Below the pieces are notes generated by a model. It saw only the letters and a list, made by a program, of their open reading frames with translations, was not told the DNA's origin and ran no database searches. Shown in pieces: positions 21,057-37,525 of a DNA stretch of 39,036 nt. Made by a program: the position numbers and the translations under genes. Every line of letters starts with the position of its first letter. The first letter of the stretch is position 1. Origin of the DNA: a virus; IMG/VR virus record IMGVR_UViG_3300046791_000259, positions 1-39,036 of that record; one strand, given 5' to 3'.

Positions 21057-21943
21057 TGGCTGGCGGATTTGATTTGATGTCCCTACTGCCTGGTGCGAAT
21101 CAGGAGCAGCAACAGCAGCCTGGGCAACCTGAGCAGGCTCCGGCGCAAGCAGCGCCTGCAGCAGCGGCGAAGGGAGGTTGGGGAGACTATCTCTCTGATC
21201 CAGTGAATAGAGCGTTTATGGTCTCTGCGGGACTGCAGATGGCCACTGGAGGGTGGGGAAATTTCGGGCAGCAAGCTGCGGCGAGTCTAGGAGCAGGAGC
21301 GAGTGCGGCGAGCGGGACGCAGCAAGCACAATTCGACACGCAGGAGAAGAATGCACAGCAGGAAGCGGAGAGGCAGAATAAGCGCGATGTGGCTTCAATC
21401 GGAGCGCAGAGTAGACAAGAGGTGGCCTCGATTCGTTCGCAGGCTATGTTGGAGAGGTCTCGACTCACGCAGGGAGCAAAGACTCCACAGGAAGCTAAGG
21501 TAGCGTCGGATGCGTATCAGAAGTCTCTTGCAACGCTTCGGGCTGCCCAGATTATTTCTGGCAAGACGGATGAGGAGATTGAAGCAACAGCAGAGGCAGA
21601 CTCGACTAAAGCCTTGGCTATACATCGAGCAGCGCAGGGAGGAGGGAAGGCGCCGGATACTGGAGCGGTGGGAGCGGTAGCACCGGCGCCGGCGGCGAAG
21701 CCAACTAGTGCAGCTGCAACTAAGAAGCAATCTGATGCTCTCTGGTTGAAGATTCAAAATAATCCAGACTATGCAGCTGCAATCGCTACACCAGAAGGAA
21801 GGGCGAAGTTGAAGGAAACGTATCCAGAATTCAAGAGTCAGATTGATACTGCGAGTCAGGCTTCAGATAGACAGATTAGAGCAAATAAGTCTATGGAATA
21901 CTTTAAGAGTCTATTTGGAGCTCCGGGTGGGGGAACTCCCTAA
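21056..21943 (+). CDS. Ejection-type coiled-coil protein, 295 aa
   Basis: ATG at 21056 follows GGGAGGGG by a short spacer and overlaps the previous TGA; TTG at 21053 is less likely. After a Gln/Pro/Ala-rich start come a small hydrophobic region (AFMVSAGLQMATGGW), an Ala/Gln helix (QAQFDTQEKNAQQEAERQNK) and a long charged helix through residue 160. The C-terminal half is Ala/Lys-rich with further helices. It resembles podovirus internal virion proteins that form the trans-envelope channel. It ends TAATG with the giant gene. Confidence 0.6.
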   Translation: MAGGFDLMSLLPGANQEQQQQPGQPEQAPAQAAPAAAAKGGWGDYLSDPVNRAFMVSAGLQMATGGWGNFGQQAAASLGAGASAASGTQQAQFDTQEKNAQQEAERQNKRDVASIGAQSRQEVASIRSQAMLERSRLTQGAKTPQEAKVASDAYQKSLATLRAAQIISGKTDEEIEATAEADSTKALAIHRAAQGGGKAPDTGAVGAVAPAPAAKPTSAAATKKQSDALWLKIQNNPDYAAAIATPEGRAKLKETYPEFKSQIDTASQASDRQIRANKSMEYFKSLFGAPGGGTP

Positions 21944-24900
21944 TGGCTGGAATGAATCCGGGGCTCTACGACCTCCGGGATGCTACTGATAGCTTGGTGA
22001 CTCCGGCGGCGGATACGACGTCGGATCTTTACAATCTCCGTACGACTGAAGAGCAAGCGAAGCCGCAGTTGGAGTTGCCGGCTCCTGCACCTCCGGCTCC
22101 AGATCTCTTCTCCCTTCGTGGAACAGAGGATCAAGTACCTCCACAGGAAGTAGAGAGGCAGAAGAAGCGAGAAGAGACTGGGTTTGCAGATTTGGCCATT
22201 GGCTCTGTGCATAGAGGGTTGCAGAGTTATGCTGCAATTCCGGATTCGTTTAGAGCGATCGGGGCAGATCTGAGTGGAGATCAAGTTGCTGCAGCTGAGT
22301 ATGCGAAGAGTGCAAAAGCGATTGAAGATATAGCTCCGGAGAGTCTTTGGAGCTTGAGCGATATCCGGAATCCGATGGATTTTGGTTCTTGGCTAACGGA
22401 AAGGTTAGGTGAGAATGCAGTTAACATCTTGGCTGCCGCTGCTACTGGCGGCGTTGGCGCTATCACAGGCTCCCTGGCTGCTCGTGGCTTGGGTCTTAGC
22501 AAAGTGGCCCGTGCCTCTTTGATGAAGGGACTGGGAGCTGGTGGAGTTTTCGCCTCTACTATGCCGATTGAAACTTCGAGTACAGTGGGAGAGCAGTTTG
22601 AAGCGACAGGTAGTCCGCAAGCGGCAGTGAGCTTAACTGCAGGTACAATTAAGGGTGCTCTTGAACTAATAGTGCCGATGCATATTGGCTATGCGTTGTC
22701 GACTCCTGGAAAGCAGTTGGGGAAGACTATTCCTGGAGCGATTGCGAAAGTTGGAGGGGAAGAAGCAGCTACTGAGCTTGCTCAGGAAGAGGTTGATATT
22801 GTTGCCCGGAAGTATACGGATCCGAGTTATGAGTATTTCGGTGGGCCTGCGCTCTGGAGAAGAGCGGAATCTGGTACAGCAGGACTCTTCGTCGGATTAG
22901 CAATGGGAGGTCCGAGTGCGGTAATAGAGGCGAGGCAGGAGAATGCTAAGGCGAAAGCTAAGGTGCCTGATGAGAGTGGAATGGTTCCAGGAGAACGGAG
23001 GTTTGTGGCACCTACGGCTCCAGCTCCAGTTCAGGAAGCAAGGGTAAGAGTCCAGGGAACAGTGCAGGATGTTACGCCTCAAGCTGCATCGGAAGCTGCG
23101 CCGATTGAGACTCCAACTATTCCCCCTGGGACGCCTCCTGCACCTCCTGCACCTCCAGCTGCACCTATAGCTCCAGTTGCGCCTACGGAAGAAGTTCCGG
23201 CGCCTGAGATGATTGCTCCGAGTAAGCCAGAGGGAGTGACCTTCGACACGGAGTCTGACGGGCCGACGCAGACTACGGTTAAGATCAAAGGTCCGGATGG
23301 AAGTGAGATCGGAGAAGCTTATGTTCGGAAGTTGAGAGGGCCTCCGGATGGAGCGCCGGTGGCACTGCAGGTAGGGAATATTGCTATCGATGAGGCTTGG
23401 CAGAGGAAGGGAATTGGGACTGCACTGCAGGAGGAGTTAGAGCAGAAGTATGGGCTGCCGATGGTTCCAGATCAGACGTTGTCGAAGGAAGCGTATGCTC
23501 GTTGGAAGCAGATTGATCCGGAGGCAGTGGCAGGCTACACTGCAATGAGAGATGGAGAATCTTACTACGCTCCGATGGGAAAACGGGAGTGGTATCCGGG
23601 AGCGCCAGATACGCCAAGAATGGCACGGGTGAGGAAAGCGTTTGCAGCGCAAGAGTATTCACGGGAGGTGTCGCGGGGAGTCGGGCCGGTCACTACGCTT
23701 CGAAATATGGTTATGCCAGTACCGGAGCAGGACTTTGATTTGAAGCAGGCAGCGACTAATGGGCCGGAGCAAGACTTGATGGGAATTGGTCCATTGTTGA
23801 GAAGTGGTATGCCTCAAGTGACTACTCAAGATATGTTAGACATGTTGGAAGCGCAGACGCCACGGTATGCAGTGAAGTTGAGTCCAGATGGTGTCTATGG
23901 CGATAAGTTGATGAATAACACGGATCTTCAGCTTGTGCTGGCGACTGGAATGGCGCAGTCAGTGAAGCCGGAGGTGGTGCAGATTTCACAGGGTGGATTG
24001 CAACCGCTAGGAATCTCAGCAGATGTATTTGATCTTCCTACACCTGGAAATAGTAGGGTTTGGTTCCTGCCGCAGGTGTCAGCGGAAGAGCAGGCACTGC
24101 TTGGAATGGAGTATAAGGATCTTCAGAAGCAGGCAGAGTTGGGGCAGCGTACCAGATTGAAGTCTGTTGCAGATTATTTGCAGGAGAAGAAGCAACTTGA
24201 AACTTGGTATAATGTGCTCTTGACGAGGGGGTTGCGCGTTGTTCCGAGTCGCGGCGCAAGTTTCTACTATAACACAGTGTTGGATGGAAGAACACTGACG
24301 AAGAAGGAAGTGGCAGATAGTGGAAGGACTGCTGCGATTACATTCATGGATGTTAAGACTGGTGTGTTGACGAATAGTACATATTTAGACTCGTCTAGCC
24401 TTAGTGATCCTGGAACACAGTATTTGCCTGTTGCGTTAGATTTGAATAAGTTTAAGCCTGGAGAAGTTAGTGCTCTTCCTTATTCAGGAGGTGGGGGTGC
24501 CTCGAGCTTCAACTGGAGATTTAAGCCAGGAACGACTGCGGAAGAGAAAGCACGGCTGATAGCTAAAGCACTTGAAACCATTCCTATGAAGAATGAATGG
24601 ACAGAAGGGGATATCGCTAAGTTTCGTGCTTTGATGAAAGAAGGAATTTGGCTACAAGTCTATCCATTTAGTGGTCAGATCGTTACTGCTGAACCAATCA
24701 CTCACAATCAGCTTACGTATGGTATTTCGCCGATTCGTCTAGAGCAGACTGCGTATAGTCTATTTGAGCGTTCGCAATCTCGCCATACGCAGGAGCGCCT
24801 ACCACTACCCACTACAACAGTGACGACAGAGAAGAGTGCTTTTCCGACTGAGGCTCTGCAAGCAGCGTTTGTCTCTAATCATGTGGAGAATGTAGTTCCT

Positions 24901-27900
24901 TTAGTGGATCAGCTTTTGAAAGCAGCAGGAATGGATGGCGGGCTTAATATTCAAGTCAAGTTCCCGCCGGTAGGGCAGGCGCATGTGTTGGGATCAGCGA
25001 ATATTAATAAGGGGGAGCTTACAATCTACGTTACACACTCGAATGTAGAAGGAGGTGCAAATAGAATCTTCCAGACTATAATGCATGAAGTTGGTCATTT
25101 TATTGCATACTATCACTATGCTAGGTTGCCCGCAATAGTGCAGCAGCAAATGTACTACGCGTATCAGAAGGCGTTGTTGGTAAGTAGAACGATGACGCAG
25201 AGAACGACAGAAGCACGAATTGGACCAATGGATAGTCCAGGGGAGTATAGTGGAAATATAAATTATTTCACCTCTTACGTGGAGTGGATTGCGGAGCAGT
25301 TTCGTAGGTGGAGTATAGCTACGCCTGAGTCGAAGACCTTCTTAGATAATGAGTATTACAAGATTGCTCAAGCGATGAATAAGTTTTACGTTCAGTGGGA
25401 AGAGCTTGGAGGTAAGTATGCTCTAGATATCACGCAGCCAGATTACTTCTTCTCACTAGTGATGGAATATCTGCGCCAGTTCTCGAAGGAGAGAGCTGAA
25501 GCTACACAGAAGATGAAGCAACAGACTATTTATTCGTTGAATCAAGATCTTCTAGACTCCCCGGTAATGTTGTCAGTCACACAGGCAATTCAACATGCGC
25601 TTCAATCTATGGCAGGGATTGTACCGAAGGACACATTGATTAAAGTCAATCCGAAGTTGGATGCAACGATTGCTCCTGTAGCAAGGGGAGCTGTTGCAAG
25701 GTATATGTATTTTGAGAATCAGAACCTTAATTTCATGGAATTAGCTGTTGGAGCACTAAAAAGTGAGGAGGCTTATGGCGAGACTCGAGTGCGGGTTGCA
25801 CATGAACTCGTGCATGCTTATCGACGGATAGGGCTCTTAACCGACGTAGCGTTTGAGCAACTTTATAGGTTTGCGAAGAAGGATGGAGTTGATCTCGGGA
25901 CGATAGCGAAGACAGATTTGCGTGAGGAAGTAGAGAAGTTCGTAGCGGCGCAGAATATGCCGCAAGATAAGGCGACGAGAGATCGAGTTTACGAAGAGTG
26001 GTTGAAGGAAGAGATAGTAGCGTACTATATTGGAGATTATGCTAATACGGGAGTTGCAACAGGAGAAGCAAAGTCGCTCCTGGACTATTTCCTGCAAGTG
26101 CTGAGTCGTATTCGGAACTTCATTCAAGGATTGGGATTTAAGACAAGAGAAGATCTTCTCCGAGCATTCTTCAACGGTGAGATGCTAGAAAGAGAAGATC
26201 GCCGGGCGGAAGAGCAGCAGTTAGTTCAAGACGTGGCGAACTATAAATCTGAGCTTCACGATAAGGGAATGATCTTTAACAAGGTGCAGATGGATGGGCC
26301 TAATTTCGTGGCTACAGCATACTCTGGACGTAATGGAATTAATAGTAAAGATGTGAAATACTACTGGTATACGCAGAATCCAACTGTAGGGAAGGGTGCG
26401 CGCCCAATTGGAGTGTTGTTTGCGAAGAACCGTATGCCGAAGGGCTTTGATATTGATTGGATTGAGTCGACTAGGCTTGGGTTAGCGCCCAGAATGATCT
26501 CCTACATGGAGAAGGATTTAGGAGTGAAGGCGAAGCCTAGTGGTACCTTTACTGCACAGGGCTATGAGTTGGGTAAGCTAAGATTTCCTGAACTCTTGAA
26601 GTACTATGTTCAGAATCCAGTCAATAAAGATTACTATTCTCCGAATGAGATTCAGAGACAATTAAGAGTGGAACGATCTACGCGTGCGCTCTTGCAGAAG
26701 CGAGGAGAGTTATCGCCAATAGAACAGGTCAGATTTGACTTGACCATTGCGGTCTTTTCTAAGATGGCTTCTAAGGTGCAGAAGGGAGTCTTCTCGAACA
26801 GAGAGCTCTTGAATCAGATGTTTATGTTAGATCGGAACTATGAGAAGGATGAAGTTCAAGGGAGTTTGATGCTATCGGGGGCTGAAGCGCAGAACAACAA
26901 GCTTTCAGGAATTGTCGGGAACTATACAGGTCCGACAGTTGAACCGTTCGAAGCGGTGACTGATAAGTTAAATAAGCTTGAAGCAGCGAAGCATGATGGA
27001 ATTGCACCGCAAGTTGAAGCTCGCTATATGCGGAGAATTCTTGAGCGAGTGCAGCATCTGGAATCTAGCCCAGAGGTGAAGAAGCATTTGAAAGTGAGTG
27101 TGATTTCAGATGAAGCAGATAGAATTGGCTACTTCACCCGAGTGTATTGGGGCTTGCATCAACTCGTTTGGCGGAATGAGCATATTCCAGGATTGCTGGA
27201 CTACATGCAAGACACGGAGTTATTCAATCAGACTCTTTCTCGGTGGCATAGTAGAGCGGATGAGATTGCCCGAGCGTGGGACTCAAGCGATGCTAATCGC
27301 GATGGAATTAGCTCGATGATGTTCTGGCTCGCCGAGATGCAATATCGTAGCGCGGTGGAGGTTGCGGGGAAGATTGTAAGAATGCCGACACAGTATGAGC
27401 GAGAGATGCAAGCGAGGAAGTTGAAGTTGAGTCCAGGGGATATTGCTCTAGTTCGGCAAGTTGAGAAGGAGTTCTCGGACTTTATTACTGAAGTGGAGCA
27501 GGTGAGTATTGATAATATCCGAGACACAGTGAGTGATCCAGTTGCTGCAAGTTTGGCCATTTTGGAGGTGCAGGCAGAGATTGCAGCTCTTAGGAAGAAA
27601 CCCTATTTCCCTATCACTCGCTTTGGGAAGTTCAGTATCACTGCGAGAGATGGTCTCAATTCGAAGAAGGTAGATGCATTCTATACTTTCGACACGTATA
27701 GGCAGTTGCAGGATGAGATTGCTAACATTGCTAGAGTGCATCCAACTTCGGATCTCTTTGAGGGACGAGTGCCGGAGGAGATGTTCGAATTCATGGGGCT
27801 TCCTGCTCCACTGATTCGTATTATTAGGACGGAAATGCCCGGACTGACCCCTAGTCAGCAAGCGTGGTTAGAGGACTTTGAGCGAATTAACTTGCCTGAT

Positions 27901-29865
27901 AAGACATTCAGGAAGAGGTGGCTTCCAGCTCGTGGGACTCCTGGGTATTCGATGGATGGATTCCGTGTCTATGCGCACTACTTCATGCATGGAAGCAGAT
28001 ACCTTGCGCGGTTGAAATTCGCGAGGAAGATGTCGGCGGATATTAGTACAGTTAGAGCGACAACTGATCAATTGCCAAGTTCGCTCAAGAGGAGATTGAT
28101 TGTCGATTATATGACTAAGCATTATAACTATATAATGGAGAGTGGAAAGGATTGGAGTAAGTTTAAGGCTTTTGTTGCACTTTGGCAATTGGGGTTTAGT
28201 CCTGCAACAGCAGCGATTAATCTCACTCAGATTCCAGTGGTGACTTTACCACACTTGGCTGGGACCTTTGGTAATGGTCAAGCGATGGTGGAACTAGGTC
28301 GAGCTATCTCTAAGTTGTCGAAGTCGAGAGGAACTAATCCTGGGGGAACGGGGAAGTTCTTCGAAGCATGGGAGGAGATGAAGCAGCAGGGGAGAATTTC
28401 AATTGGCCAAGCAGCAGAGTTAGGGTCCTATGCGCAGGGGCATAATTTGGGTAAACTGCTCGGCGGGACGAAGGTCCAGAAGTTCTATAGGAATGCTGCT
28501 TACTATGGCATGTGGATGTTTCAGAAGGCAGAGGAGGCGAACCGAAAAGTGACCTTCACTGCGGCCTGGGAACTGGCGATGAAGAACCCTGGGACGAAGA
28601 GATTACAAGAGATTCAAGGAACTGCCGCGACCTCTCATCCGGGTTCGGGGTATAATAGAGAGATTGCAGACTTGATGGCGAGGAAGGGATTCTCGCATCA
28701 GGAAGCAGTGGCGTTTATCTTCACGAAGGGAGTGATTGATCAGACGCAGGGCATTTATGCTCCCTACTCTCGACCAGCGTTCATGCGAAAGCCATTAGCT
28801 GGAGCATTGTTGATCTTCTATCAGTTCACGCAGATGATGACTTATGTGTTTAGATATAGTCCAGGCACTGTTCAGCTCTTGTTGATTACCGCAATGCTCT
28901 ATGGACTTGGTGGATTGCCGGGGTCAGACGACCTCAATGAGTTGTTGAAGCTCTTAGGGAAGAAGCTCTTCGGAGCGGATTGGGACTTGCAGCAGCATGC
29001 GAGGAAGTTTGCTCGAGAGCTTACTCGAGGGACGTTGTTCGATGAAGAGGGGCCAGACTTACTCCTGCACGGAGTCTCGAGATATGGGTTCGGATTGGGA
29101 TTGCTGCCAGAGGGTTGGGCCTTAGGCAAGTTCGATGCGAGTGCGAATGGAAGTTTGGGTAAGTTAGTTCCAGGCATGTATGAGATGTTGCATGGAATCA
29201 ATACGAAGCAAAAGCCGGATCAGTTCGTTTCTGATACCATGCAGCGGATGTCTGGAGCTGGGTTTGGGTTTATGTTCAATTTCATCCAGTGGGGAATGGA
29301 GAATCCTGGGACGACAGACTCGCATAAATGGGAGAGTATGCTGCCTCGAAGTGCCAGAGCTGTCGCGAAGGCCTATAGACTCTATTCGGATGAGGGAGAG
29401 ACAACGAGGCAAGGAGCGCGCATTGTGAAGTTTGATGTGCAAGAGCCGGAAGATTTAGCTGCAATTGCTACGCAAGCTCTGGGGTTCTCTGCGACGAAGA
29501 ATACTGCGAAGTGGGAAATGCTTAGGGAGCAGAGAGATCAGCTTCAACTCTACACGGCGGAGAGAGCTATACTCTACGCGCAGATGGACCGGGCGGTGAG
29601 GAGTGGGAATCCTGGTGTGGTGCAAGATGTGTTGAAGTCAGTTCGCCTCTACAACGAGGATGTGAAGCAAGTTGATCCGAGTATGCAAATCCAGGCGAAG
29701 TTGATGCTACAGAGTGTGCAGCAGAGGATCAGAGGCCGGGCGATGCAAGAACTCGGCCTGCCAACGCAGAAGGGGCAGATTCCTGTCACGAAGAGAATGC
29801 AGGATATGTTCCCGAATGTGGAGGCGGAGAGAGTGCGTACGGAGCGGAGGCTGTTGGGGCAATGA
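21943..29865 (+). CDS. Giant polyvalent ejection protein with zincin, GNAT and PLxRFG segments, 2640 aa
   Basis: One uninterrupted frame of 2640 codons. Seen in order: a disordered charged start; a hydrophobic Ala/Gly region about residues 150-215; a Pro/Ala-rich linker about 350-430; a GNAT-like segment with QRKGIG at 487-492; a zincin-like motif HEVGH at 1048-1052; a second, HELVH, at 1287-1291; the PxxxxRFG motif (P1887 to G1895) of PLxRFG phage proteins; and a hydrophobic stretch about 2283-2325 that could span a membrane. Large phage proteins that join peptidase, transferase and other domains are known as polyvalent proteins and are thought to enter the host with the DNA and disable defences or remodel the cell envelope. 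The zincin sites suggest protein cleavage; activity is not proven. Last and longest gene of the ejection set. Confidence 0.8.
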   Translation: MAGMNPGLYDLRDATDSLVTPAADTTSDLYNLRTTEEQAKPQLELPAPAPPAPDLFSLRGTEDQVPPQEVERQKKREETGFADLAIGSVHRGLQSYAAIPDSFRAIGADLSGDQVAAAEYAKSAKAIEDIAPESLWSLSDIRNPMDFGSWLTERLGENAVNILAAAATGGVGAITGSLAARGLGLSKVARASLMKGLGAGGVFASTMPIETSSTVGEQFEATGSPQAAVSLTAGTIKGALELIVPMHIGYALSTPGKQLGKTIPGAIAKVGGEEAATELAQEEVDIVARKYTDPSYEYFGGPALWRRAESGTAGLFVGLAMGGPSAVIEARQENAKAKAKVPDESGMVPGERRFVAPTAPAPVQEARVRVQGTVQDVTPQAASEAAPIETPTIPPGTPPAPPAPPAAPIAPVAPTEEVPAPEMIAPSKPEGVTFDTESDGPTQTTVKIKGPDGSEIGEAYVRKLRGPPDGAPVALQVGNIAIDEAWQRKGIGTALQEELEQKYGLPMVPDQTLSKEAYARWKQIDPEAVAGYTAMRDGESYYAPMGKREWYPGAPDTPRMARVRKAFAAQEYSREVSRGVGPVTTLRNMVMPVPEQDFDLKQAATNGPEQDLMGIGPLLRSGMPQVTTQDMLDMLEAQTPRYAVKLSPDGVYGDKLMNNTDLQLVLATGMAQSVKPEVVQISQGGLQPLGISADVFDLPTPGNSRVWFLPQVSAEEQALLGMEYKDLQKQAELGQRTRLKSVADYLQEKKQLETWYNVLLTRGLRVVPSRGASFYYNTVLDGRTLTKKEVADSGRTAAITFMDVKTGVLTNSTYLDSSSLSDPGTQYLPVALDLNKFKPGEVSALPYSGGGGASSFNWRFKPGTTAEEKARLIAKALETIPMKNEWTEGDIAKFRALMKEGIWLQVYPFSGQIVTAEPITHNQLTYGISPIRLEQTAYSLFERSQSRHTQERLPLPTTTVTTEKSAFPTEALQAAFVSNHVENVVPLVDQLLKAAGMDGGLNIQVKFPPVGQAHVLGSANINKGELTIYVTHSNVEGGANRIFQTIMHEVGHFIAYYHYARLPAIVQQQMYYAYQKALLVSRTMTQRTTEARIGPMDSPGEYSGNINYFTSYVEWIAEQFRRWSIATPESKTFLDNEYYKIAQAMNKFYVQWEELGGKYALDITQPDYFFSLVMEYLRQFSKERAEATQKMKQQTIYSLNQDLLDSPVMLSVTQAIQHALQSMAGIVPKDTLIKVNPKLDATIAPVARGAVARYMYFENQNLNFMELAVGALKSEEAYGETRVRVAHELVHAYRRIGLLTDVAFEQLYRFAKKDGVDLGTIAKTDLREEVEKFVAAQNMPQDKATRDRVYEEWLKEEIVAYYIGDYANTGVATGEAKSLLDYFLQVLSRIRNFIQGLGFKTREDLLRAFFNGEMLEREDRRAEEQQLVQDVANYKSELHDKGMIFNKVQMDGPNFVATAYSGRNGINSKDVKYYWYTQNPTVGKGARPIGVLFAKNRMPKGFDIDWIESTRLGLAPRMISYMEKDLGVKAKPSGTFTAQGYELGKLRFPELLKYYVQNPVNKDYYSPNEIQRQLRVERSTRALLQKRGELSPIEQVRFDLTIAVFSKMASKVQKGVFSNRELLNQMFMLDRNYEKDEVQGSLMLSGAEAQNNKLSGIVGNYTGPTVEPFEAVTDKLNKLEAAKHDGIAPQVEARYMRRILERVQHLESSPEVKKHLKVSVISDEADRIGYFTRVYWGLHQLVWRNEHIPGLLDYMQDTELFNQTLSRWHSRADEIARAWDSSDANRDGISSMMFWLAEMQYRSAVEVAGKIVRMPTQYEREMQARKLKLSPGDIALVRQVEKEFSDFITEVEQVSIDNIRDTVSDPVAASLAILEVQAEIAALRKKPYFPITRFGKFSITARDGLNSKKVDAFYTFDTYRQLQDEIANIARVHPTSDLFEGRVPEEMFEFMGLPAPLIRIIRTEMPGLTPSQQAWLEDFERINLPDKTFRKRWLPARGTPGYSMDGFRVYAHYFMHGSRYLARLKFARKMSADISTVRATTDQLPSSLKRRLIVDYMTKHYNYIMESGKDWSKFKAFVALWQLGFSPATAAINLTQIPVVTLPHLAGTFGNGQAMVELGRAISKLSKSRGTNPGGTGKFFEAWEEMKQQGRISIGQAAELGSYAQGHNLGKLLGGTKVQKFYRNAAYYGMWMFQKAEEANRKVTFTAAWELAMKNPGTKRLQEIQGTAATSHPGSGYNREIADLMARKGFSHQEAVAFIFTKGVIDQTQGIYAPYSRPAFMRKPLAGALLIFYQFTQMMTYVFRYSPGTVQLLLITAMLYGLGGLPGSDDLNELLKLLGKKLFGADWDLQQHARKFARELTRGTLFDEEGPDLLLHGVSRYGFGLGLLPEGWALGKFDASANGSLGKLVPGMYEMLHGINTKQKPDQFVSDTMQRMSGAGFGFMFNFIQWGMENPGTTDSHKWESMLPRSARAVAKAYRLYSDEGETTRQGARIVKFDVQEPEDLAAIATQALGFSATKNTAKWEMLREQRDQLQLYTAERAILYAQMDRAVRSGNPGVVQDVLKSVRLYNEDVKQVDPSMQIQAKLMLQSVQQRIRGRAMQELGLPTQKGQIPVTKRMQDMFPNVEAERVRTERRLLGQ

Positions 29866-29879
29866 ATGGGACCATGAAT

Positions 29880-29914
29880 GGGGCCGTGTGTGGAGGCGCA
29901 CAATGCCCCCTTTT
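29880..29914 (+). terminator. Hairpin repeat, copy 4: terminator at the convergent junction
   Basis: Arms 29880-29890 and 29899-29909 pair at 9 of 11 positions around the 8-nt loop TGGAGGCG, followed by C and four T on the + strand. It lies between the stops of the giant + gene (29865) and the last - gene (29914), where transcription from both sides meets. The - strand has no T tract after the stem, so termination is expected mainly for the + operon. The arms belong to the same family as 167-202 and 11155-11184. Confidence 0.65.
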
Positions 29915-31143
29915 CACTCGCCTTTCCGCCCGACATAGGTGAGCTCCCAATCTCCTGCCACTTGCTTTTGCAAGATAATCCCAGAAGCAATCGCATCCTT
30001 AACACTTTCACGATAGGCTCTGCCATTGATAGTATGTGAACAGATCTGGAAGAGCCTCTTGTAGGTAGTTCGTCCTTCTGGCGAAGTCTTGATCAAGTTA
30101 ACGATCTCGTTAGTGGTCTTCGCTTCAGGCGAAACTCCGATCGAATTAAAAACGTGGAGCATTGAATGTTCGAGTGCAGTGATCTGAGCTTCCGCTTCAA
30201 CTAAGTCTTCAAGCTCTATCGTGAGGGTGTTGCGTTTACTCGCAGCAAGGATCATTGAGAGCTTGTGAACGTGAGTTTGCTTCCTCGAAACGTAGCCCTG
30301 GAAGCGATCCCCAGCCAAGTGTGGGGGCCGGGCTCCATTCCACAAATTTCGATACCAGTCATCGCCCCAGAGGAAGCTCTCTTCGGAGAGTGTGTAGCGG
30401 CCGACGAGCTTCGAGATTTGAGTTAGATCATGGACTAAAGCTCGCTCCTCTTCGAGAAATTCAGAATTCTTAGTTAAGCGACTAGGGTAAGGAATTAGCT
30501 GTGCCTTCTTATCGGCGAAGACAAAGAGGACTCGACTTGAGAGTCCGCCTTCGATCAGAATTGAAGGCATTCGATCTTTCATCCAAGAGGGAGTAGTGCA
30601 GCCGATGAAATTGAGTAGCGAATTGGGAATGATCGATTCACCCTCTTTGACTGTTCTTCGGTGGAGCTTATCTCCATCCCAGGTCTTGATTAGGAAGTCC
30701 AAGAGCTCGCGATCTTCTGGCTTCAAGAAGCTCCCGAGTTCGGTTGCCGCAATGGTGATAGCAGAGCTAAGTTCGGGGTTCTTCTCGCCAGGGAAAGTGA
30801 TTGCGTTCTGCGCGTCCTTGAATGCACCGAGAAGAGCTTGCCACGTCATACTTGTGGGACCGAAGATCACGTTAGGTACTTTTTCCAGCAACCTCATTCC
30901 ATTGTTGAGGGAAGTGGTCTTGGTTGCTACGCCTGGACTCGCGACTAGAATGATGTAGAAGTTCGGGAACCACTTCCAGTTCACTTCATCTATCATCACT
31001 CTCCGGCCGAGTGCGCCCGCAATGGTAGCAACTCCGGTCCAGAAGTGAAAGTGGATCGGAGCCTCAGTGTTGCGGTTGTGGTCAACGTAGGCCTGGAGCC
31101 AGTTAGGATAGGCTCGGAGCAGTGGCGTGGGGTGTGAATTCAC
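29914..31143 (-). CDS. DUF3987-type helicase/primase-like ATPase, 409 aa
   Basis: Segments FHFWTGVATIAGALGRRV, WFPNFYIILVASPGVATKTT, GPTSMTWQALL, AATELGSFL, LLNFIGCTTPSW and GGLSSRVLFVFADKK are those of the phage/YfjI-like DUF3987 ATPases, which serve as replicative helicase- or primase-helicase-like proteins. The P-loop (68-77, ASPGVATKTT) is degenerate: Ala replaces the first Gly and Thr the Gly before Lys. E138 lies in a Walker B-like strand. It closes the replication cluster after the palm half of the polymerase and a zinc-binding protein. GTG at 31143 is the only start in the open frame and has no strong ribosome-binding site, so coupling to upstream genes is likely. Confidence 0.7.
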   Translation of the reverse strand: MNSHPTPLLRAYPNWLQAYVDHNRNTEAPIHFHFWTGVATIAGALGRRVMIDEVNWKWFPNFYIILVASPGVATKTTSLNNGMRLLEKVPNVIFGPTSMTWQALLGAFKDAQNAITFPGEKNPELSSAITIAATELGSFLKPEDRELLDFLIKTWDGDKLHRRTVKEGESIIPNSLLNFIGCTTPSWMKDRMPSILIEGGLSSRVLFVFADKKAQLIPYPSRLTKNSEFLEEERALVHDLTQISKLVGRYTLSEESFLWGDDWYRNLWNGARPPHLAGDRFQGYVSRKQTHVHKLSMILAASKRNTLTIELEDLVEAEAQITALEHSMLHVFNSIGVSPEAKTTNEIVNLIKTSPEGRTTYKRLFQICSHTINGRAYRESVKDAIASGIILQKQVAGDWELTYVGRKGE

Positions 31144-31168: not shown

Positions 31169-31390
31169 TCACTTGACCTCCAGTTGATTATCTATGATCC
31201 AAGTACGAGCTGCACCTGCTGCCGCGATATACGCTCTAGATGGATCCTTCGTCACCTCCTGCCCCTTCCTATAAGTGCGCCAGATCTCATTACGAATGTG
31301 CTTCGGAAGGCGGAACCAGTGCGATTTGCAACCCCAAAGGTTGGGCGGGACTTCGATTTTGCATCCAGGCCAATGGCAAGTGTGGCTCAT
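31169..31390 (-). CDS. Zinc-binding phage protein, 73 aa
   Basis: Starts MSHTCHWPGCKIEVPPNLWG, then C-K-S-H-W-F-R-L-P-K. The C-x4-C and C-x2-H set forms a probable zinc site. The conserved HWFRLPKHIRNEIWRTYRKG and an AYIAAAGAARTWI helix mark a small protein seen beside DNA polymerases in many phages. Its role is not known to me; DNA binding or assisting the polymerase is inferred from position. ATG at 31390 overlaps the palm-half stop as ATGA, so the two are translationally coupled. The longer frame to 31435 lies inside the polymerase gene and is not needed. Confidence 0.8.
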   Translation of the reverse strand: MSHTCHWPGCKIEVPPNLWGCKSHWFRLPKHIRNEIWRTYRKGQEVTKDPSRAYIAAAGAARTWIIDNQLEVK

Positions 31391-32160
31391 GCCGCCTGCA
31401 ACTCCTGCCAGGTCACTTTCTCCGCGTGTCCCCAAGATCTTTCACTCAACTTCATTCCCCAGGGAATCTCAAGAGGATCTTCATACGGGACAATGACTCT
31501 AAGAGCGTCACGAATCACTCTATACCCTGCGATTGAGTGTCGGTGATTCGGGAACTGAAAGACTAAGGAGTCGTGTACTTGGAGCAGGATCTCAACCCAC
31601 GGCACATACTTCCGGAGGTTGATAGCACCTTTCGAGCATGTGATAGCGACCGTAGACTGTGGTATCCATGCAAGCGCTTTTGGGAGGATATTACTCGGTC
31701 GATCGAAGTAAGTGATGGAGAAGCCAAACTTATTGCTAACGCCACGCTTAGAGCTCTGGATTTGCGCGTCGACTTCTCTCTGCCAGTTGAGGATGCCAGG
31801 GTAGGTCCGGAGGTACCCGGACTGGAAAGCTCGGACTTCCACAATCTTCCATCCAAGAATTTTCGCAAGTTCTCTTTCAGAAACAAGGTAGTTAGTGCCA
31901 TGCACTCCACGCTTACACTCATCTCTCCAGGTGAGCTTTCGGCGAATCTTCTTTGGATCGTAAGTCGTTCCCCAGAGTCTGTTTCCATTGAAATTGTGAA
32001 TATCAAGGCCCGCTCTAAAGGCACTCTTCAACTCCTTCTCGTTTGCCTCCCAGGCCACGACTTGAGCATCGGCTCCAGAGAGGTCGCAGTCCGCTATGAT
32101 CTTCCCCTTGTCTGGGAGGATCAGTTGTCGAACTGGTGGCTTCTCCCACTTTGGTAGCAC
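31387..32160 (-). CDS. Family A DNA polymerase, C-terminal half (palm and fingers)
   Basis: This 257-residue protein starts just before motif A and carries all three polymerase motifs: A, DLSGADAQ with catalytic D26; B, R79-x3-K83 then H87 and Y91; C, VHDS with D197. By alignment with E. coli Pol I, residue 710 (Glu) is Asp here, residue 762 (Phe) is His, and the Glu after the motif C Asp is Ser. It lacks exonuclease and thumb, which are encoded by the gene at 34113-36029. GTG at 32160 has GAGGAG at 8-10-base spacing, so it is translated as a separate chain. The same frame upstream is closed by the TGA of the 74-aa gene. Activity would require joining with the other half. Confidence 0.85.
   Translation of the reverse strand: MLPKWEKPPVRQLILPDKGKIIADCDLSGADAQVVAWEANEKELKSAFRAGLDIHNFNGNRLWGTTYDPKKIRRKLTWRDECKRGVHGTNYLVSERELAKILGWKIVEVRAFQSGYLRTYPGILNWQREVDAQIQSSKRGVSNKFGFSITYFDRPSNILPKALAWIPQSTVAITCSKGAINLRKYVPWVEILLQVHDSLVFQFPNHRHSIAGYRVIRDALRVIVPYEDPLEIPWGMKLSERSWGHAEKVTWQELQAA
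32140..32154 (-). repeat. Junction repeat at the palm side of the polymerase split
   Basis: Read on the - strand this 15-mer starts CCAAAGTGGGAGAA and codes PKWEK, the natural sequence between QNIP and motif A. It matches 34116-34130 (CCCAAGGTGGAAGAC) at about 11 of 13 positions with one gap. It may be a remnant of the event that placed the reductase cassette inside the polymerase. Confidence 0.5.
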
Positions 32161-32172
32161 TGGAGCTTCTCC

Positions 32173-32397
32173 TCAGTCGCAAGTTAGACCCTTCTCTTCA
32201 ACTAACCATCGAGGGACGGCAATCACTACTGGTTTTGATCGTGGAAGTATTATCTCCTCTTCCGGTTCGACCTGACTCTTCGGGAGCCAGTGTTCGATCT
32301 GCTTACCGTCTTTGTCGGTTAGACCTTCAGTGACCTTCCAGGCCTTGATGGTCTCTGTCAAGACGATAAGGCTAATGTCAATTAGTTCTTTACTCAC
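32173..32397 (-). CDS. Small hypothetical protein in the reductase cassette, 74 aa
   Basis: GTG at 32397 lies inside the end of the reductase gene (TGTGAGTAA), an 8-base overlap. Contains EHWLPKSQVEPEEE and VIAVPRWLVEEKGL, a small-protein pattern that I have seen among phage replication genes but cannot name. It looks like a compact OB- or barrel-like strand set (ISLIVLTETIKAWKV) ending in a short helix. It ends in TGA, and only four codons later, in the same frame, the palm half of the polymerase begins. It may assist the reductase or polymerase; no evidence decides this. Confidence 0.65.
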   Translation of the reverse strand: MSKELIDISLIVLTETIKAWKVTEGLTDKDGKQIEHWLPKSQVEPEEEIILPRSKPVVIAVPRWLVEEKGLTCD

Positions 32398-34111
32398 AGC
32401 TTCTCACTCCTGTCACTGGGTCAAATTCGCACGAACTCACAGGCTCATCTCCGTTGTCTTTAGAGACAAGGACCGCTCCACGGAAGTTCCCTGTTCGGTG
32501 AGTCGTGCAGCCCTTGCATCCGGCCTCCCAGGCCTTGAAGTAGACAGACTGAAAATCATCCCAGGAGACGTTAGTTGGCACGTTACAAGTCTTACTCACT
32601 GCCGAGTCGATGTGATAACTCACGATCGTAAGCACCTCCAAGTGATCATTCACTGAACACTTAGAGCTAATCTTCCCATGGGTGTCGAGGAAACGCACTC
32701 CATAGTCTTGAACCTCTACCTTGCGGACTCCGTTGAATTCGCGCAGAGTACGCTCTGTCTCGTATGCATAGACGGGTTCGATCCCGGAGGAGACATTGTC
32801 TGCGGCGAAGCTAATCGTTCCAGTGGGAGCGATCGAGAGCAAGTGCGAATTACGGATTCCATTCTCTGCAATTAGATCTCTCGTTTCGTCGGACAAGCTT
32901 TCTACGAACCGCGCCGATAAGTACCTTTCCTTATCGTAGAGTGGGAATGAGCCTTTCTCCGCAGCAAGTTCCGCTGAAGAGCGGTAAGTCGCGTTCTTGA
33001 GGGCTGAGAGGATGTTCGCTGTCGAGGAGACGAAAGCATTTGAACCATAAAGTGGCCCCATTGCTTCGATACAGTTAGCAAGTCCTGTAACTCCAAGGCC
33101 CATCCGCCGCTTGCTCTTCGCTTCATCTTCTTGCTCCGAGAGAGGGTATTTCGCTCGATCCACTACGTTGTCCATTGCTCGCACTACATGTGGGATGTCC
33201 TTGAAGAGTTGGACGTAGTCGAATTCCCACTGTTGGCGGAGGCCGCCTCTTCGCAAATACTTGACTAGATTCCAGGAGCCGAGGAGACAGGCTCCATATG
33301 GAGGGAGTGGCTGTTCGCCGCAGGGATTAGTCGCAGCAATAGTCTCGCAATAGTAAAGATTATTGAACTTATTAATGGAGTCGATGAAGAGGACGCCGGG
33401 CTCGCTCCAGTCGAAGGTCGAGCGCATGATCGCCTCCCACAAGGTCTTGGCTTCAACCGTGCGATAGATCTTCTTCCCCCACCGGAGATCGAAGGGGCTC
33501 CCGTGTTTGACCGCAGTCATAAATTCGTCAGTGACTGCGATGGAAAGATTGAAGGCAGTGAAGCGTTTAGAGTTCTGCTTCGCTCTAATAAATTCTTCAA
33601 TGTCAGGATGGTCAATTCGGAGCACTCCCATCTCTGCGCCACGACGATCTCCAGAGCTCGCTGTACACCGACCCACTGCATCATAAATGTCAATAAAACT
33701 GACCGCTCCAGAGGAGCGCGAGTTAAGTTTCTTAATAAGCTCGCCTCTTGGACGGAGCGTTGAGAAGTCGTAGCCAATTCCACCACCAAGTCGCATAGTT
33801 GCAGCTGCTTCGTGAGCTCTCGACATAATTGAATCGTGGCCGTCGACGTAAGAGTCTCCAATGGTACCAGAGACGAAGCAATTGTAGGGGGTTGTTCCTT
33901 TGCTTGAGCCGACACTGGTCTGTATCCTTCCGGCAGGCATGAAGCGCATAGATAAGAGGATTTCACGAAGGGCATGATAGTGCTCATCGTTGTCGGAGAG
34001 AGCAGAAGCAATTCTACTCATCGCTTCGCGAAAGCTTTCCCCCTCTCCGCGGTACTTCTCGGCATGGATTTGATCGCAAGCAGGCGTTTGAGGTCCATAA
34101 GTGATCGTCAT
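32390..34111 (-). CDS. nrdJ: Ribonucleoside reductase, class II (adenosylcobalamin dependent)
   Basis: Class II reductases use vitamin B12 coenzyme, without oxygen or a second subunit, to turn ribonucleotides into deoxyribonucleotides. Signature sequences present: YNCFVSG near residue 76, RLGGGIGYDFS, and NPCGEQPLPPYGACLLGSWN with C264, E266 and C275 in the spacing of the thiyl-radical and active-site cysteines. Also seen are IAPTGTIS, NVPTNVSWDDF and a C-terminal CKGC plus two late Cys for reduction. At 573 aa it lacks an ATP-cone, like many phage forms. Start ATG 34111 follows the polymerase N-half stop as TAAGATG; its end overlaps the 74-aa gene. Confidence 0.9.
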   Translation of the reverse strand: MTITYGPQTPACDQIHAEKYRGEGESFREAMSRIASALSDNDEHYHALREILLSMRFMPAGRIQTSVGSSKGTTPYNCFVSGTIGDSYVDGHDSIMSRAHEAAATMRLGGGIGYDFSTLRPRGELIKKLNSRSSGAVSFIDIYDAVGRCTASSGDRRGAEMGVLRIDHPDIEEFIRAKQNSKRFTAFNLSIAVTDEFMTAVKHGSPFDLRWGKKIYRTVEAKTLWEAIMRSTFDWSEPGVLFIDSINKFNNLYYCETIAATNPCGEQPLPPYGACLLGSWNLVKYLRRGGLRQQWEFDYVQLFKDIPHVVRAMDNVVDRAKYPLSEQEDEAKSKRRMGLGVTGLANCIEAMGPLYGSNAFVSSTANILSALKNATYRSSAELAAEKGSFPLYDKERYLSARFVESLSDETRDLIAENGIRNSHLLSIAPTGTISFAADNVSSGIEPVYAYETERTLREFNGVRKVEVQDYGVRFLDTHGKISSKCSVNDHLEVLTIVSYHIDSAVSKTCNVPTNVSWDDFQSVYFKAWEAGCKGCTTHRTGNFRGAVLVSKDNGDEPVSSCEFDPVTGVRSCE

Positions 34112-34112
34112 C

Positions 34113-36029
34113 TTAGTCTTCCACCTTGGGAATGTTCTGATTATTGGTTGCCTCGCCGAAAGAGTTCTCGCTCGAACTCCAGCGGAACGTTTCAGGCTGC
34201 GCTACGTTGAACTGTGGATGCATGCGTCCATCTGGTCCCTCCTTCGCTTCAAGAAATTCTCTGAACTTATTCATCGATCTCCATTCGGAGAGCGTGTCTA
34301 GCCAGTGTCCATACCAAGGGTACTTCTCCGCCAGCTCACTCAACGCTGAATCATCCGTAGTAGGCTTCTTAGTCTTCTTATGCTTCTGCTGCTCTAAGCC
34401 GAGGCGTTCATAGAGGAGGTTAGCCATAGCGATGGGTGAGGTGAAGTAGGGCTTTCCAGACACTACCTTGGAGATTTGTTCAGGTACACAGGATTCTAAC
34501 CAGGAAGCTCGGGAGGCAGTTTGCATGATCAGATCAGTCAACATCCGGTCTCGCTCTTCTCGATTGAAGTGGTAGCCTCGGAGGGTCATATCGCGGGCCA
34601 GCTCCCACTGCTCCATCATGAACTCGAACTGAGGCTCCAATTTGCGCTTCTGGATCAACTTGACTAAGAGCTGAGCAGACTCATAAGTGTGGCGTGTATC
34701 TTTGCAATTATACCGCCACATCTGTTCCGCAGACATCTCACTTGCATTCCATCCTTCGGATTCGTTCTTCCAGTAGCAATAGGAGTTGCAGTAGCATGAG
34801 GCGAGGTATTCGAGCGATTTTGGGACTCCGGGGAAGAGGAGGTGCTGCGCAACCATCGTATCGAAGTTCACGATCGCCTCGATCCCGTAGGTGCGGAAGA
34901 GCCATTGAGTGTCGTAGGTGAAGTTCTGGCCAATGATCTTGCAGTTGGGATGCTCAAGCAACGTCTTGAGACGTTCCCATAGCCAGAGCTCTTCATGTTC
35001 GAGCCAGTAGGGTATGGCATAGTTTGGGGCATTCTGTTCCCCATATGTCCGCGCCACTGACGGCCGCAAATTTGGGGAGGGGGAGTGGCCCACGGGAGCG
35101 GGCGGCGCCGAAATTTGCCTGTTCGCCGCCCCGCCGGCGGCATCCTGGGCCGAGTGGCCCGCTGTGCCCGCATATGAGAACAAAGGTATAGCCAACTCGC
35201 AAGTGGCGTCAGCAAGCCCGACCACGGTGATGTACTTCCTCCGAGGGTAGTCGGTCTCCAAGTCCACTGCGAGTGGGAGTGGACGCTGGTGGCAGATAGC
35301 GATCCAGGAGTTTAGGATGGCGGTGAGTTGGGTGAAGTCGGGCCGCCAGATGGAGTTGAGCTCGGGAGACTGCCAGGGTAGAGTGCCAGTTAAAAATCTC
35401 TTACCTCTTGATCTAAGATCATGTACGGTGATGGATCGGAAGCCCCACTCGCGAAGGATCGCAGCGGGATGGATGATGGGCAGAACCGGATACTGCCGTC
35501 CGGAAATAGGGATAGAGTAGGTTTGAGATCCACGCCAGGTGAGGATGCCAGCAGGGACTCGGAAGCCCTTCTTGGTGCTAAGCTCGGCATGATCTGTGAG
35601 TGCCCATAGAGGCCAGTTACCTGCCGCGATAAGGAGCTTAGGCTGGACATGATTAATGAGAGAGTAGAGACGATCAAGATGAGTCCGAGCAAGAGGAGAT
35701 AGGTAGAGTCCACGGTAGTTGAGAGCATCTTTCTCTACCTTCTTTTTGGGAGTTGGGAGGAGGAAGCGAGTGAATTCGTTGAACTGTGGTTGAGCGGAGA
35801 CTACATTTGTGCAGAGGAAGTGATTGCGGTCGAGTCCTGCCTCTTTCAACATGCGGTTGAATTCTTGCCCGGACTGGCCAACGAACGGTGCAGAGAGGCG
35901 AGCTTCTTCCGCGCCCCAGGCTTCGCCGACGATCATCGCTGAAGCGGTGCGCGGACCGGAGGTGCCGGAGAAGAGGGAGTGAGAGATGGAGGGAGAGATG
36001 GAGGAAGAGATGGGGTTAAGTTTTTGCAT
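34113..36029 (-). CDS. Family A DNA polymerase, N-terminal half: UDG-like domain, 3'-5' exonuclease, thumb
   Basis: Residues 30-210 form a uracil-DNA-glycosylase superfamily domain (GEAWGAEE at 35-42, PFVGQSGQEF, HPAAILRE at 187), as in the SPO1 polymerase type. The DEDDy exonuclease follows: D256-x-E258, D373 in QNFTYD, and Y440/D444. An Ala/Gly/Pro-rich insert of about 45 residues lies between the first two exonuclease motifs. The thumb runs to FRWSSSENSFGEATNNQNIP and the chain then stops after KVED, exactly before motif A. The palm is coded 2 kb away at 31387-32160. ATG at 36029 has GGAG at 6-base spacing and overlaps the methyltransferase gene by 14 bases. Likely gives proofreading and primer binding to a two-chain polymerase. 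Confidence 0.85.
   Translation of the reverse strand: MQKLNPISSSISPSISHSLFSGTSGPRTASAMIVGEAWGAEEARLSAPFVGQSGQEFNRMLKEAGLDRNHFLCTNVVSAQPQFNEFTRFLLPTPKKKVEKDALNYRGLYLSPLARTHLDRLYSLINHVQPKLLIAAGNWPLWALTDHAELSTKKGFRVPAGILTWRGSQTYSIPISGRQYPVLPIIHPAAILREWGFRSITVHDLRSRGKRFLTGTLPWQSPELNSIWRPDFTQLTAILNSWIAICHQRPLPLAVDLETDYPRRKYITVVGLADATCELAIPLFSYAGTAGHSAQDAAGGAANRQISAPPAPVGHSPSPNLRPSVARTYGEQNAPNYAIPYWLEHEELWLWERLKTLLEHPNCKIIGQNFTYDTQWLFRTYGIEAIVNFDTMVAQHLLFPGVPKSLEYLASCYCNSYCYWKNESEGWNASEMSAEQMWRYNCKDTRHTYESAQLLVKLIQKRKLEPQFEFMMEQWELARDMTLRGYHFNREERDRMLTDLIMQTASRASWLESCVPEQISKVVSGKPYFTSPIAMANLLYERLGLEQQKHKKTKKPTTDDSALSELAEKYPWYGHWLDTLSEWRSMNKFREFLEAKEGPDGRMHPQFNVAQPETFRWSSSENSFGEATNNQNIPKVED
34116..34130 (-). 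repeat. Junction repeat at the thumb side of the polymerase split
   Basis: On the - strand CCCAAGGTGGAAGAC codes PKVED, the last residues before the stop. Without one extra G it would read PKWK, close to the PKWEK that opens the palm half. The pair 34116-34130 and 32140-32154 thus looks like a short duplication around the inserted cassette. Confidence 0.5.
35041..35178 (-). other. GC-rich in-frame insert within the exonuclease domain
   Basis: About 140 bases far richer in G and C than their surroundings, with hairpin-forming segments, sit inside the polymerase N-half gene and stay in frame. They code the low-complexity stretch SYAGTAGHSAQDAAGGAANR and onward to about SVARTYGEQN. CATATG lies near both ends with partly inverted flanks (GTTCCCCATATG and the complement of CATATGAGAAC). 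The segment contains GCCTGTTCGCC (35117-35127), identical to 239-249 in the left repeat block. It may be a small mobile palindromic element taken into the coding sequence. Confidence 0.45.
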
Positions 36030-37425
36030 CTGCATCTCCAAGCTTCAAGAGGCGCGAGCAGGCCATAGCGTGGTAGGTATCGTCGAGCTCAATCCCCGTG
36101 ACGGAGAGTTGACGAGTGGCAGCAGCATCGAAGATTGAGCCTGATCCGCAGCAAGGATCTAATATTGCGTCACCGGGGCGAGAGGAGATCTGGAGTAACC
36201 AGGAGAGGAGTTCGATGGGCTTCTCTGCGGCGTGGAGCTTCTCTGCGCGAGCAGTGCGTTCGAAGTAGCGTACGTCCGGACCTCCATTGTCTACAAGAGC
36301 CTTCTGCCCCTTGACGAAGAAGAGAAGGCATTCGTAGGTGTAGGTGAAGCCATTACGTCCCCAAGGGGCATGACCAGTGGCCTTGTCCTTTTGCCAGATA
36401 ATTGGTTTACGCCAAGTTGAGAAGGCTTGCTGTTCTGCAATGGTGCGGAGAGTGAGGAAGTGTTCGATGTCGCAGAACATGAAGCCAATTCCTTGAGGCT
36501 TGAGTAAGTGGAAGCCTCTTCGGAGGATGTAGCGGCAGAGTTCGACAGCGTAGTCCTTATCGTCCTTGTAGTTGTGAGCGGTGTCTGTCTTCATCTTGTC
36601 TGCATCGATGCCGTAAGGGGGGTCGACGATTAGTGTATCGAAGGAGGCGTTGGTAAGTTTGTTCATCACTTCCCGGCAGTCGCCTTGGAGACAGGTGTGA
36701 TTAGAGGAGAAGCCTGAGACTGCGATTAGTTCCCGCTCGAATTGAACACGTTGAGTGTCGAGGATCTGGCGATAAGCGGCGTGAACATTCTTCGAGTTAG
36801 CTATTCGAGGGTCGGAGAGATGCTTGGAGACAGTCATTGCCTGGACGAGGTTCTGTCGAGCGACTTCGACTCGCTTGCGATCTTTCGCATTGGCAGCAGG
36901 TTGGGTTGCTAAGACGATTTCAAAGGCAGTATCGGCTTGAGTCTGAGTGGGGTTCTGCTTCTGCCGGAGTTCGTGGAGCTTAGTTACTGCGGCTGCGCGC
37001 TCTTGCCAGGAGAGATCGGCTCGGAGGATATTTTCATCGAACTCAGCTTCTGCAAGCTCCAGTTCGGTCATCTGTTGAATGAGAGTGAAGGGCATCATGC
37101 CCGGAGGTACGAGCTCGCCGTTGTGCCGGAATTCGAGTCCGTCTTGATGCAGTTCACACATGGAGAGGTACCTGCGTTCTCCGACTAGGAGTGTGCAGGC
37201 GCCTTCGGGAGTGAAGTGCACTACTGGGGCATGGAAGAGGCCCTTGGCTACTATGCCTTTCTTGAGTTCCTGAAGTTCAGCGGAACTCTTATTCTCTTTC
37301 CTCTGGCGATCCACAGGGATTATGACAGCGCCAATAGGTACCAGTTGTCGTGTAGTGTTCGGTGCAGTTGATTGCGCGAGAAACATCGAGGGTGGTGAGT
37401 TTAGCTCTTGTAGTGAGTCGTTCAT
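36016..37425 (-). CDS. ParB-like domain fused to DNA methyltransferase, 469 aa
   Basis: Residues 25-110 resemble a ParB/Srx nuclease-type domain (LVPIGAVIIPVDRQRKE, then TLLVGERRYLSMCELH). A central helical part leads to an amino-methyltransferase: catalytic DPPYG at 268-272 and, after it, the cofactor motif DPCCGSGS from residue 423 with GIELDD. This order (catalytic motif before cofactor motif) is the beta class that methylates adenine N6 or cytosine N4. ParB-methyltransferase fusions are common in phages and probably protect their DNA from host restriction. ATG at 37425 has GGAAG at about 9 bases; the ATG at 37434 has no usable site. The stop overlaps the polymerase N-half start. Confidence 0.85.
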   Translation of the reverse strand: MNDSLQELNSPPSMFLAQSTAPNTTRQLVPIGAVIIPVDRQRKENKSSAELQELKKGIVAKGLFHAPVVHFTPEGACTLLVGERRYLSMCELHQDGLEFRHNGELVPPGMMPFTLIQQMTELELAEAEFDENILRADLSWQERAAAVTKLHELRQKQNPTQTQADTAFEIVLATQPAANAKDRKRVEVARQNLVQAMTVSKHLSDPRIANSKNVHAAYRQILDTQRVQFERELIAVSGFSSNHTCLQGDCREVMNKLTNASFDTLIVDPPYGIDADKMKTDTAHNYKDDKDYAVELCRYILRRGFHLLKPQGIGFMFCDIEHFLTLRTIAEQQAFSTWRKPIIWQKDKATGHAPWGRNGFTYTYECLLFFVKGQKALVDNGGPDVRYFERTARAEKLHAAEKPIELLSWLLQISSRPGDAILDPCCGSGSIFDAAATRQLSVTGIELDDTYHAMACSRLLKLGDADAKT

Positions 37426-37525
37426 CGGAAGCATCTTCCAGGAAATAGAGGGTAGAGGCAAAGCCGAAGAGCATCGCAGCGAGGATTGAACCTCCAAGTG
37501 CGAAGTGTGGTGCTCTTGTGACCAT
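37289..37525 (-). CDS. Possible small membrane protein, 78 aa
   Basis: ATG at 37525 follows GGGGGA by 8 bases and a stable hairpin. The product has one probable transmembrane segment near residues 8-27 (FALGGSILAAMLFGFASTLY), a charged linker and a Cys-containing end (CTEHYTTTGTYWRCHNPCGS). Its last 137 bases overlap the start of the methyltransferase in another frame, which is more overlap than elsewhere in this genome. It may be a real small early membrane protein or a chance frame in the methyltransferase leader. Confidence 0.4.
   Translation of the reverse strand: MVTRAPHFALGGSILAAMLFGFASTLYFLEDASDERLTTRAKLTTLDVSRAINCTEHYTTTGTYWRCHNPCGSPEERE

Follow-up and report, generated by a model that had tools for sequence, protein, structure and literature searches.

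Organization of the split polymerase locus

A family A DNA polymerase encoded by two separate genes was identified in a virus record of 39 kb (IMG/VR record IMGVR_UViG_3300046791_000259, positions 1-39,036, referred to here as the window). The two genes are separated by a class II ribonucleotide reductase (RNR) gene and a gene encoding a protein of 74 amino acids. A first-pass annotation had described a polymerase in two halves around these genes, and all of the open reading frames (ORFs) were found where it had placed them.

The first polymerase chain (chain 1; 34113..36029, minus strand) consists of a UDG-like domain, a 3'-5' exonuclease and the thumb. It matches the Pfam families UDG (2.4e-16), DNA_pol_A_exo1 (4.6e-14) and DNA_pol_A (from position 20) as well as PHROG 17 DNA polymerase, and the exonuclease residues D, E, D, Y and D are all there. 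The gene stops at 34113 and starts at either a TTG (36041) or an in-frame ATG (36029, chosen in the first-pass annotation). The C-terminus reads ...TNNQNIPKVED, so the N half ends at QNIP as described earlier. The second chain (chain 2; 31387..32160, minus strand) contains the palm and fingers with motifs A, B and C (Pfam DNA_pol_A 2.6e-16) and begins with a GTG codon behind GAGGAG. The palm half had been thought to resume at motif A; it starts about 22 residues earlier, and this start (MLPKWEKPPVRQLILPDKGKIIADCDLSG) aligns with LPNIRKLFIPDPG of intact relatives. The DNA_pol_A model is covered from about 20-133 by chain 1 and from about 140-348 by chain 2, which leaves six positions uncovered at the junction. 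The 39-kb record contains no further match to family A and none to family B.

The aspartates of motifs A and C and the lysine and tyrosine of motif B (D, K, Y, HD) are present in the window and in essentially all relatives. When chain 2 was modelled alone with AlphaFold2, the predicted local distance difference test score (pLDDT) was 96.7 and the predicted template modelling score (pTM) was 0.91. The model resembles the palm and fingers of DNA polymerase I (Pol I) from Bacillus and E. coli, and its top Foldseek match is Bacillus Pol I 4ds4 (E 4e-11, TMq 0.80). The model of an intact relative compared with Klenow/Bst gave a TMt of about 0.8, corresponding to the right-hand fold. The window departs from the single polypeptide of the Pol I type, its two ORFs being set apart by a stop codon and an RNR gene. 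Together these features support well the reading of the window as a genuine two-chain family A DNA polymerase. The earlier view that the two chains are separate proteins that would have to assemble is supported. As a separate observation, the residue equivalent to position 762 of Pol I, located by its spacing from the motif B lysine, is a histidine in the window, as it is in each of the 190 aligned relatives, unlike the groups with Phe, Tyr or Leu that have been described for marine PolA.

The RNR gene (32390..34111, minus strand) encodes a class II (adenosylcobalamin-dependent) reductase, NrdJ, of 573 amino acids. The protein scores 476 bits against NCBIfam TIGR02504 NrdJ_Z, which exceeds the cutoff of 399.95 bits, and matches Pfam PF02867 (1.2e-101); the nearest solved structure is 1xje, a B12-dependent reductase. 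As judged from family membership, the enzyme would depend on adenosylcobalamin and function without a radical-generating subunit. The 74-amino-acid protein (32173..32397, minus strand; phrog_8389 5.7e-7) has a homologue behind the RNR in one relative, L027.

The RNR gene starts 1 nucleotide past the stop codon of chain 1 (TAAGATG), the start of the 74-amino-acid gene overlaps the RNR stop (GTGAGTAA), and GAGGAG...GTG precedes the palm; these junctions are as neat as first described. The end of the chain 1 gene (CCCAAGGTGGAAGAC TAAG ATG; 34113..34139, minus strand) appears to double as the ribosome-binding region of the next gene, as indicated by the sequence and by a family-wide synonymous-codon Shine-Dalgarno test. 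The gap between the chains contains only the RNR and the 74-amino-acid protein, and no endonuclease gene.

Distribution of the split among relatives

Profile scans yielded 199 non-redundant related loci, 196 of them with both halves visible; a single-sequence palm scan of viral contigs found nothing, and a profile scan was needed. The polymerase is split at the same loop in 72 of the 196 loci, a fraction that is not a population frequency because only the best 80 loci were kept per scan. Typically, the tail of the first chain is ...NLQN(I/L)PKG(D/E)E, and M...LPN(I/V)R opens the second. Few breaks lie at other places: there are seven ahead of the ExoIII motif, two around model position 225 and none in the palm. 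Those just before the ExoIII motif were observed in L045, L130, L205, L246, L248, L007 and L008, and those near the UDG/exonuclease border in L060 and L171, which are relatives or more distant polymerases. L007 and L008 had been taken as intact loci and were found to be split at these other places.

The common break separates the thumb (QNIP) from the first segment of the palm (LPNIR). The intact relative L036 was modelled with AlphaFold2 at a mean pLDDT of 96.5 and a pTM of 0.93, and the sole block of low confidence in the model (residues 531-540, pLDDT 65) falls inside the linker (529-543) that joins QNIP (525-528) to LPNIR (from 544). The linker has a median length of 11 residues in intact relatives (range 5-51). 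Because the break falls in a flexible loop and spares the catalytic motifs, the Pol I fold should be able to accommodate it.

On a FastTree phylogeny of 190 rows, from which L007 and L008 were left out, the split/intact character changes at least 14 times. Clean stop/start junctions occur next to intact relatives in L204, L213, L220 and L222. The minimal-split junctions are ATGA, TAATG and TGATG, the usual signs of translational coupling. A change in the opposite direction is suggested by L069 (4243-6720), an intact polymerase with no cargo that is nested (98/94) in a clade in which both halves consist mostly of split loci with a dUTPase; L069 is a candidate for a re-fused polymerase that has lost the dUTPase.

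The chain 1-RNR-chain 2 order was found in four relatives (L001, L012, L027 and L091), giving five independent loci with the window. L001 contains chain 1, an RNR that is 64% identical and chain 2, without the 74-amino-acid gene; L012 and L027 carry extra small genes; L091 is a contig of a Dokdonella metagenome-assembled genome. Palm identity among loci of this order is about 47-54%. Since the record is itself a metagenome-derived contig, an assembly or sequencing artefact was considered. Its probability is negligible: the independent loci share the order, which refutes an artefact for the arrangement as a class, and the same break is present in an isolate, Vibrio phage VS-ABTNL-3. With the same order recovered in these independent contigs, both chance and the assembly join that had been a concern at first are excluded.

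Evidence for the use of both chains

The ratio of nonsynonymous to synonymous substitution rates (dN/dS) was estimated for both halves. Split pairs had median values of 0.12 (N half) and 0.09 (palm), against 0.15 and 0.07 in intact pairs; the ratios are approximate because dS is often >1. Both halves are under purifying selection on these estimates. The distance matrices of the two halves correlate (r 0.75) equally in the split and intact sets, and all 68 aligned split loci (68/68) keep the exonuclease residues, the aspartates of motifs A and C and the lysine of motif B. It could be argued that only one half works, the split being a form of decay with replication left to a host polymerase, as some phages have no polymerase gene at all, for example cyanopodoviruses (PMC9860041). 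This reading is highly improbable, as dN/dS near 0.1 resembles that of intact genes, the catalytic residues are kept in all aligned split loci and the window clade has retained both halves at deep divergence. No stop codons or lost catalytic residues were seen in one half of close relatives.

Pairing with the anti-Shine-Dalgarno sequence over the last nine codons of chain 1 was 1.35 kcal/mol stronger in split loci than in synonymous shuffles (Wilcoxon P 3e-7), whereas intact loci had no stronger Shine-Dalgarno pairing in the same shuffle test (split vs intact P 1e-8). Because pairing beats the shuffles in split but not in intact loci, the chain 1 end seems to be selected, in split loci only, for its role as the ribosome-binding region of the gene that follows. 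The test gave no support for the notion that a selected internal ribosome-binding site already exists in intact genes.

The interruption might alternatively be removed by an intron, an intein or ribosome bypass to give one normal chain. Phage polymerase genes often contain group I introns, which have been suggested for the split polymerases of OM43 phages (PMC10580990). However, the stop codon and the start codon that follows leave no continuous reading frame, coding sequence fills the gap, such an element would not fit into 15 of the loci at all and ribosome-binding signals are selected at the break. Rfam searches for a known intron or other RNA gave no match in the window at E 1 and none in ten relatives at gathering scores. 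The intron, intein and bypass readings, the first two already discounted in the first-pass annotation, are very unlikely and were dropped on the stop/start junctions and the lack of an Rfam match.

Gap contents and origin of the split

The gap ranges from a 4-nucleotide overlap to 2,899 nucleotides, with 15 loci at ≤2 nucleotides (no cargo). Pfam searches of 55 non-RNR gap proteins identified 14 dUTPases, four YfbR-like 5'-deoxynucleotidases, two DUF7768 proteins and single DUF6378, DUF3310, exonuclease, SNase and HNH proteins, among others. PHROGs add HNH, deoxyribosyltransferase and pyrophosphatase matches, and MazG and genes of unknown function are other cargo of split loci. The polymerase gap of one relative (L071:4156-5769) combines a Mom-like DNA modification gene with a DnaQ-type exonuclease. 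Counting clear nucleotide-pool Pfam families only, nucleotide-pool genes make up 23 of 59 gap proteins (including four RNRs), against at most 4 of 110 random flanking genes of split loci (Fisher 6e-9). The minimum number of tree changes is one for the RNR, one for the YfbR-like gene and about three for the dUTPase. The counts are suggestive of a cargo bias towards nucleotide metabolism.

The five gap RNRs form one clade (support 100/100) in a tree of 22 reductases, and the five RNR-carrying polymerases also form one clade (100/99). Because these clades match, it is concluded from the trees that the RNR entered the gap once and was kept while the polymerases diverged to about 50% identity. Repeated acquisition, which 63% identity to Pseudomonas phage reductases had suggested, was ruled out by the RNR tree. 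A phage class II reductase frame in another record (L268:3983-6187) is about 160 amino acids longer than its relatives, and its N-terminal part may hold an insertion.

The RNR clade is a small group inside a much larger split group. The RNR cassette had first been seen as what divided the polymerase, but it is not the general cause of the split because the identical loop is broken in relatives that carry no genes there or quite different ones, and the RNR is confined to this one small clade.

A different cause would be mobile elements: homing endonucleases would have split the gene and later been replaced by cargo including the RNR, so that the gap is a scar and the site a homing target rather than a tolerated loop. 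HNH genes are present in the gaps of three relatives (L025, L051 and L134). L134 (HNH gene, 420-nucleotide gap) and L136 (4-nucleotide overlap) have palms that are 96% identical, which shows that an HNH gene can appear or vanish at the gap; cargo can thus come or go at an already split site, possibly by a recent HNH insertion or by clean loss. There are also precedents, as mobE splits nrdA in Aeh1 and seg43 is associated with the split gene 43 of Aeromonas phage 25 (PMC2988022). However, an endonuclease is absent from most gaps, 15 loci have ≤2 nucleotides between the chains, no endonuclease was seen in the RNR clade and the clean junctions beside intact relatives (L204, L213, L220 and L222) indicate that splitting needs no insert that is still present. 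This origin is considered unlikely.

Proposed mechanism

The explanation considered probable as a whole is a two-chain Pol I in which a tolerated loop has been broken and rejoined repeatedly, the cargo is secondary and the chains assemble non-covalently. On this explanation, the lineage tolerates a break in the thumb-palm loop, which has been broken or rejoined many times. In its simplest form, the split consists of a stop codon with a start codon behind it or overlapping it (ATGA, TAATG, TGATG), with the ribosome-binding site arising within the codons of the conserved PKGDE tail. Once a gene boundary lies at the loop, other genes could settle there harmlessly. In the window clade, a class II RNR came in once and stayed, and sister clades carry a dUTPase or a 5'-deoxynucleotidase-like gene. 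The chains would be translated from one operon or message and would assemble, most likely non-covalently, into the normal Pol I fold. The cargo may provide co-expressed supply or clean-up of deoxynucleoside triphosphates (dNTPs) beside a polymerase with a UDG-like domain.

Several points weigh against this explanation. Assembly of the chains, their activity and an advantage of the cargo are inferred. The independent cargo acquisitions are few, and shared descent inflates the enrichment of nucleotide-pool genes, which is weaker than the raw counts. The only isolate found with this split is Vibrio phage VS-ABTNL-3, the other relatives being mostly uncultured contigs. A more elaborate version, in which the loop is a standing insertion site with repeated split and re-fusion that preferentially takes up cargo for dNTP supply or dUTP removal for joint synthesis, perhaps in one complex, is possible but doubtful. 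A physical complex of the RNR with the polymerase is possible but unsupported.

The wider lineage pattern is more interesting than the single case of the window. It provides a natural series of one essential enzyme at one loop (intact, cleanly split, split with cargo and apparently re-fused), which makes the origin and tolerance of genes in pieces directly testable and offers ready-made split Pol I enzymes. By gene order, phages may couple polymerase synthesis to dNTP supply. Annotation pipelines may score the halves as fragments, so split polymerases are probably under-counted.

Replication module and neighbouring genes

The plus strand of the window contains terminase, portal and major head protein genes, and the minus strand contains the replication module. 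The order on the minus strand is a Sak4-like AAA ATPase gene, a gene for 162 amino acids, a ParB/N6-N4 methyltransferase gene, chain 1, the class II RNR gene, the 74-amino-acid gene, chain 2, a gene for 88 amino acids and a DUF3987 gene. The DUF3987/phage primase-like gene (29914..31143, minus strand; Pfam PF13148 4.5e-14), which has conserved synteny in L003, is downstream of the polymerase in split and intact relatives alike. The DNA methyltransferase gene (36016..37497, minus strand; Pfam PF01555 2.8e-22) precedes the polymerase in L003, L004 and L005, and is its neighbour across split and intact relatives; the ParB-like domain of the enzyme is N-terminal. A 2640-amino-acid open frame on the plus strand (21943-29865), which has no convincing Pfam match and only a weak acetyltransferase signal, probably encodes a very large virion-associated protein. 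A nucleotide-level search against known phages gave 0 matches.

Comparison with known systems

A literature search that covered few subscription papers found no description of this break site, of an RNR or dUTPase in the gap or of repeated splitting. The virioplankton PolA papers that were read treat the RNR as a neighbour of polA and do not mention splits. The closest named records, Microcystis phage Mel-JY34 and phage ctMlz233, belong to the same lineage and share the domain order UDG-exonuclease-Pol A and the preceding methyltransferase; Mel-JY34 also has a DUF3987-type gene after the polymerase, as in the window. In both records, the polymerase is one gene, in which QNIP is followed by a short linker and then by LPN(I/V)R or an equivalent of it. 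Vibrio phage vB_VspS_VS-ABTNL-3 (PVS_29/28/27) is split at the same loop, with QNLPKGDG and a stop codon followed by M...LPNIKKLFVPEP, but its gap holds a 184-amino-acid protein of unknown function and no reductase. The NrdJ proteins of Pseudomonas phages (PaMx28 and others) are >60% identical to the window RNR over the full length, whereas their genes lie outside the polymerase, beside terminase, ligase or helicase genes.

Split polymerases in some phages, mentioned in the first-pass annotation, include a family A example with an internal ORF. In the OM43 phages MEP401 and MEP402, a family A polymerase is spread over two ORFs that flank a small one, and the authors raised the possibility of an intron (PMC10580990). 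As in the window, the exonuclease and N-terminal part come first and the C-terminal part second, with an ORF between. Their break is about 15 residues later, directly before motif A (...RYGE, stop, then MILNADAKALEW); the window breaks before LPNIR, whereas MEP401 breaks after the equivalent residues. The MEP401/MEP402 polymerase has no UDG domain, and the reductase gene lies about 3.7 kb away, beyond the polymerase. Split family A polymerases are therefore already known, but the break site and cargo pattern described here differ.

The nearest precedent for the proposed assembly is Aeromonas phage 25, in which the products of the split T4-type genes 43A and 43B co-purify and are active as a polymerase (PMC2988022). 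Like the window, genes 43A/43B of Aeromonas phages 25 and 44RR and the split nrdA of Aeh1 place an essential replication enzyme in two chains, which in those systems reconstitute activity (PMC2988022). The Aeromonas systems differ in that they involve a family B polymerase or a reductase and are interrupted by an endonuclease or untranslated insert, with no nucleotide-metabolism cargo.

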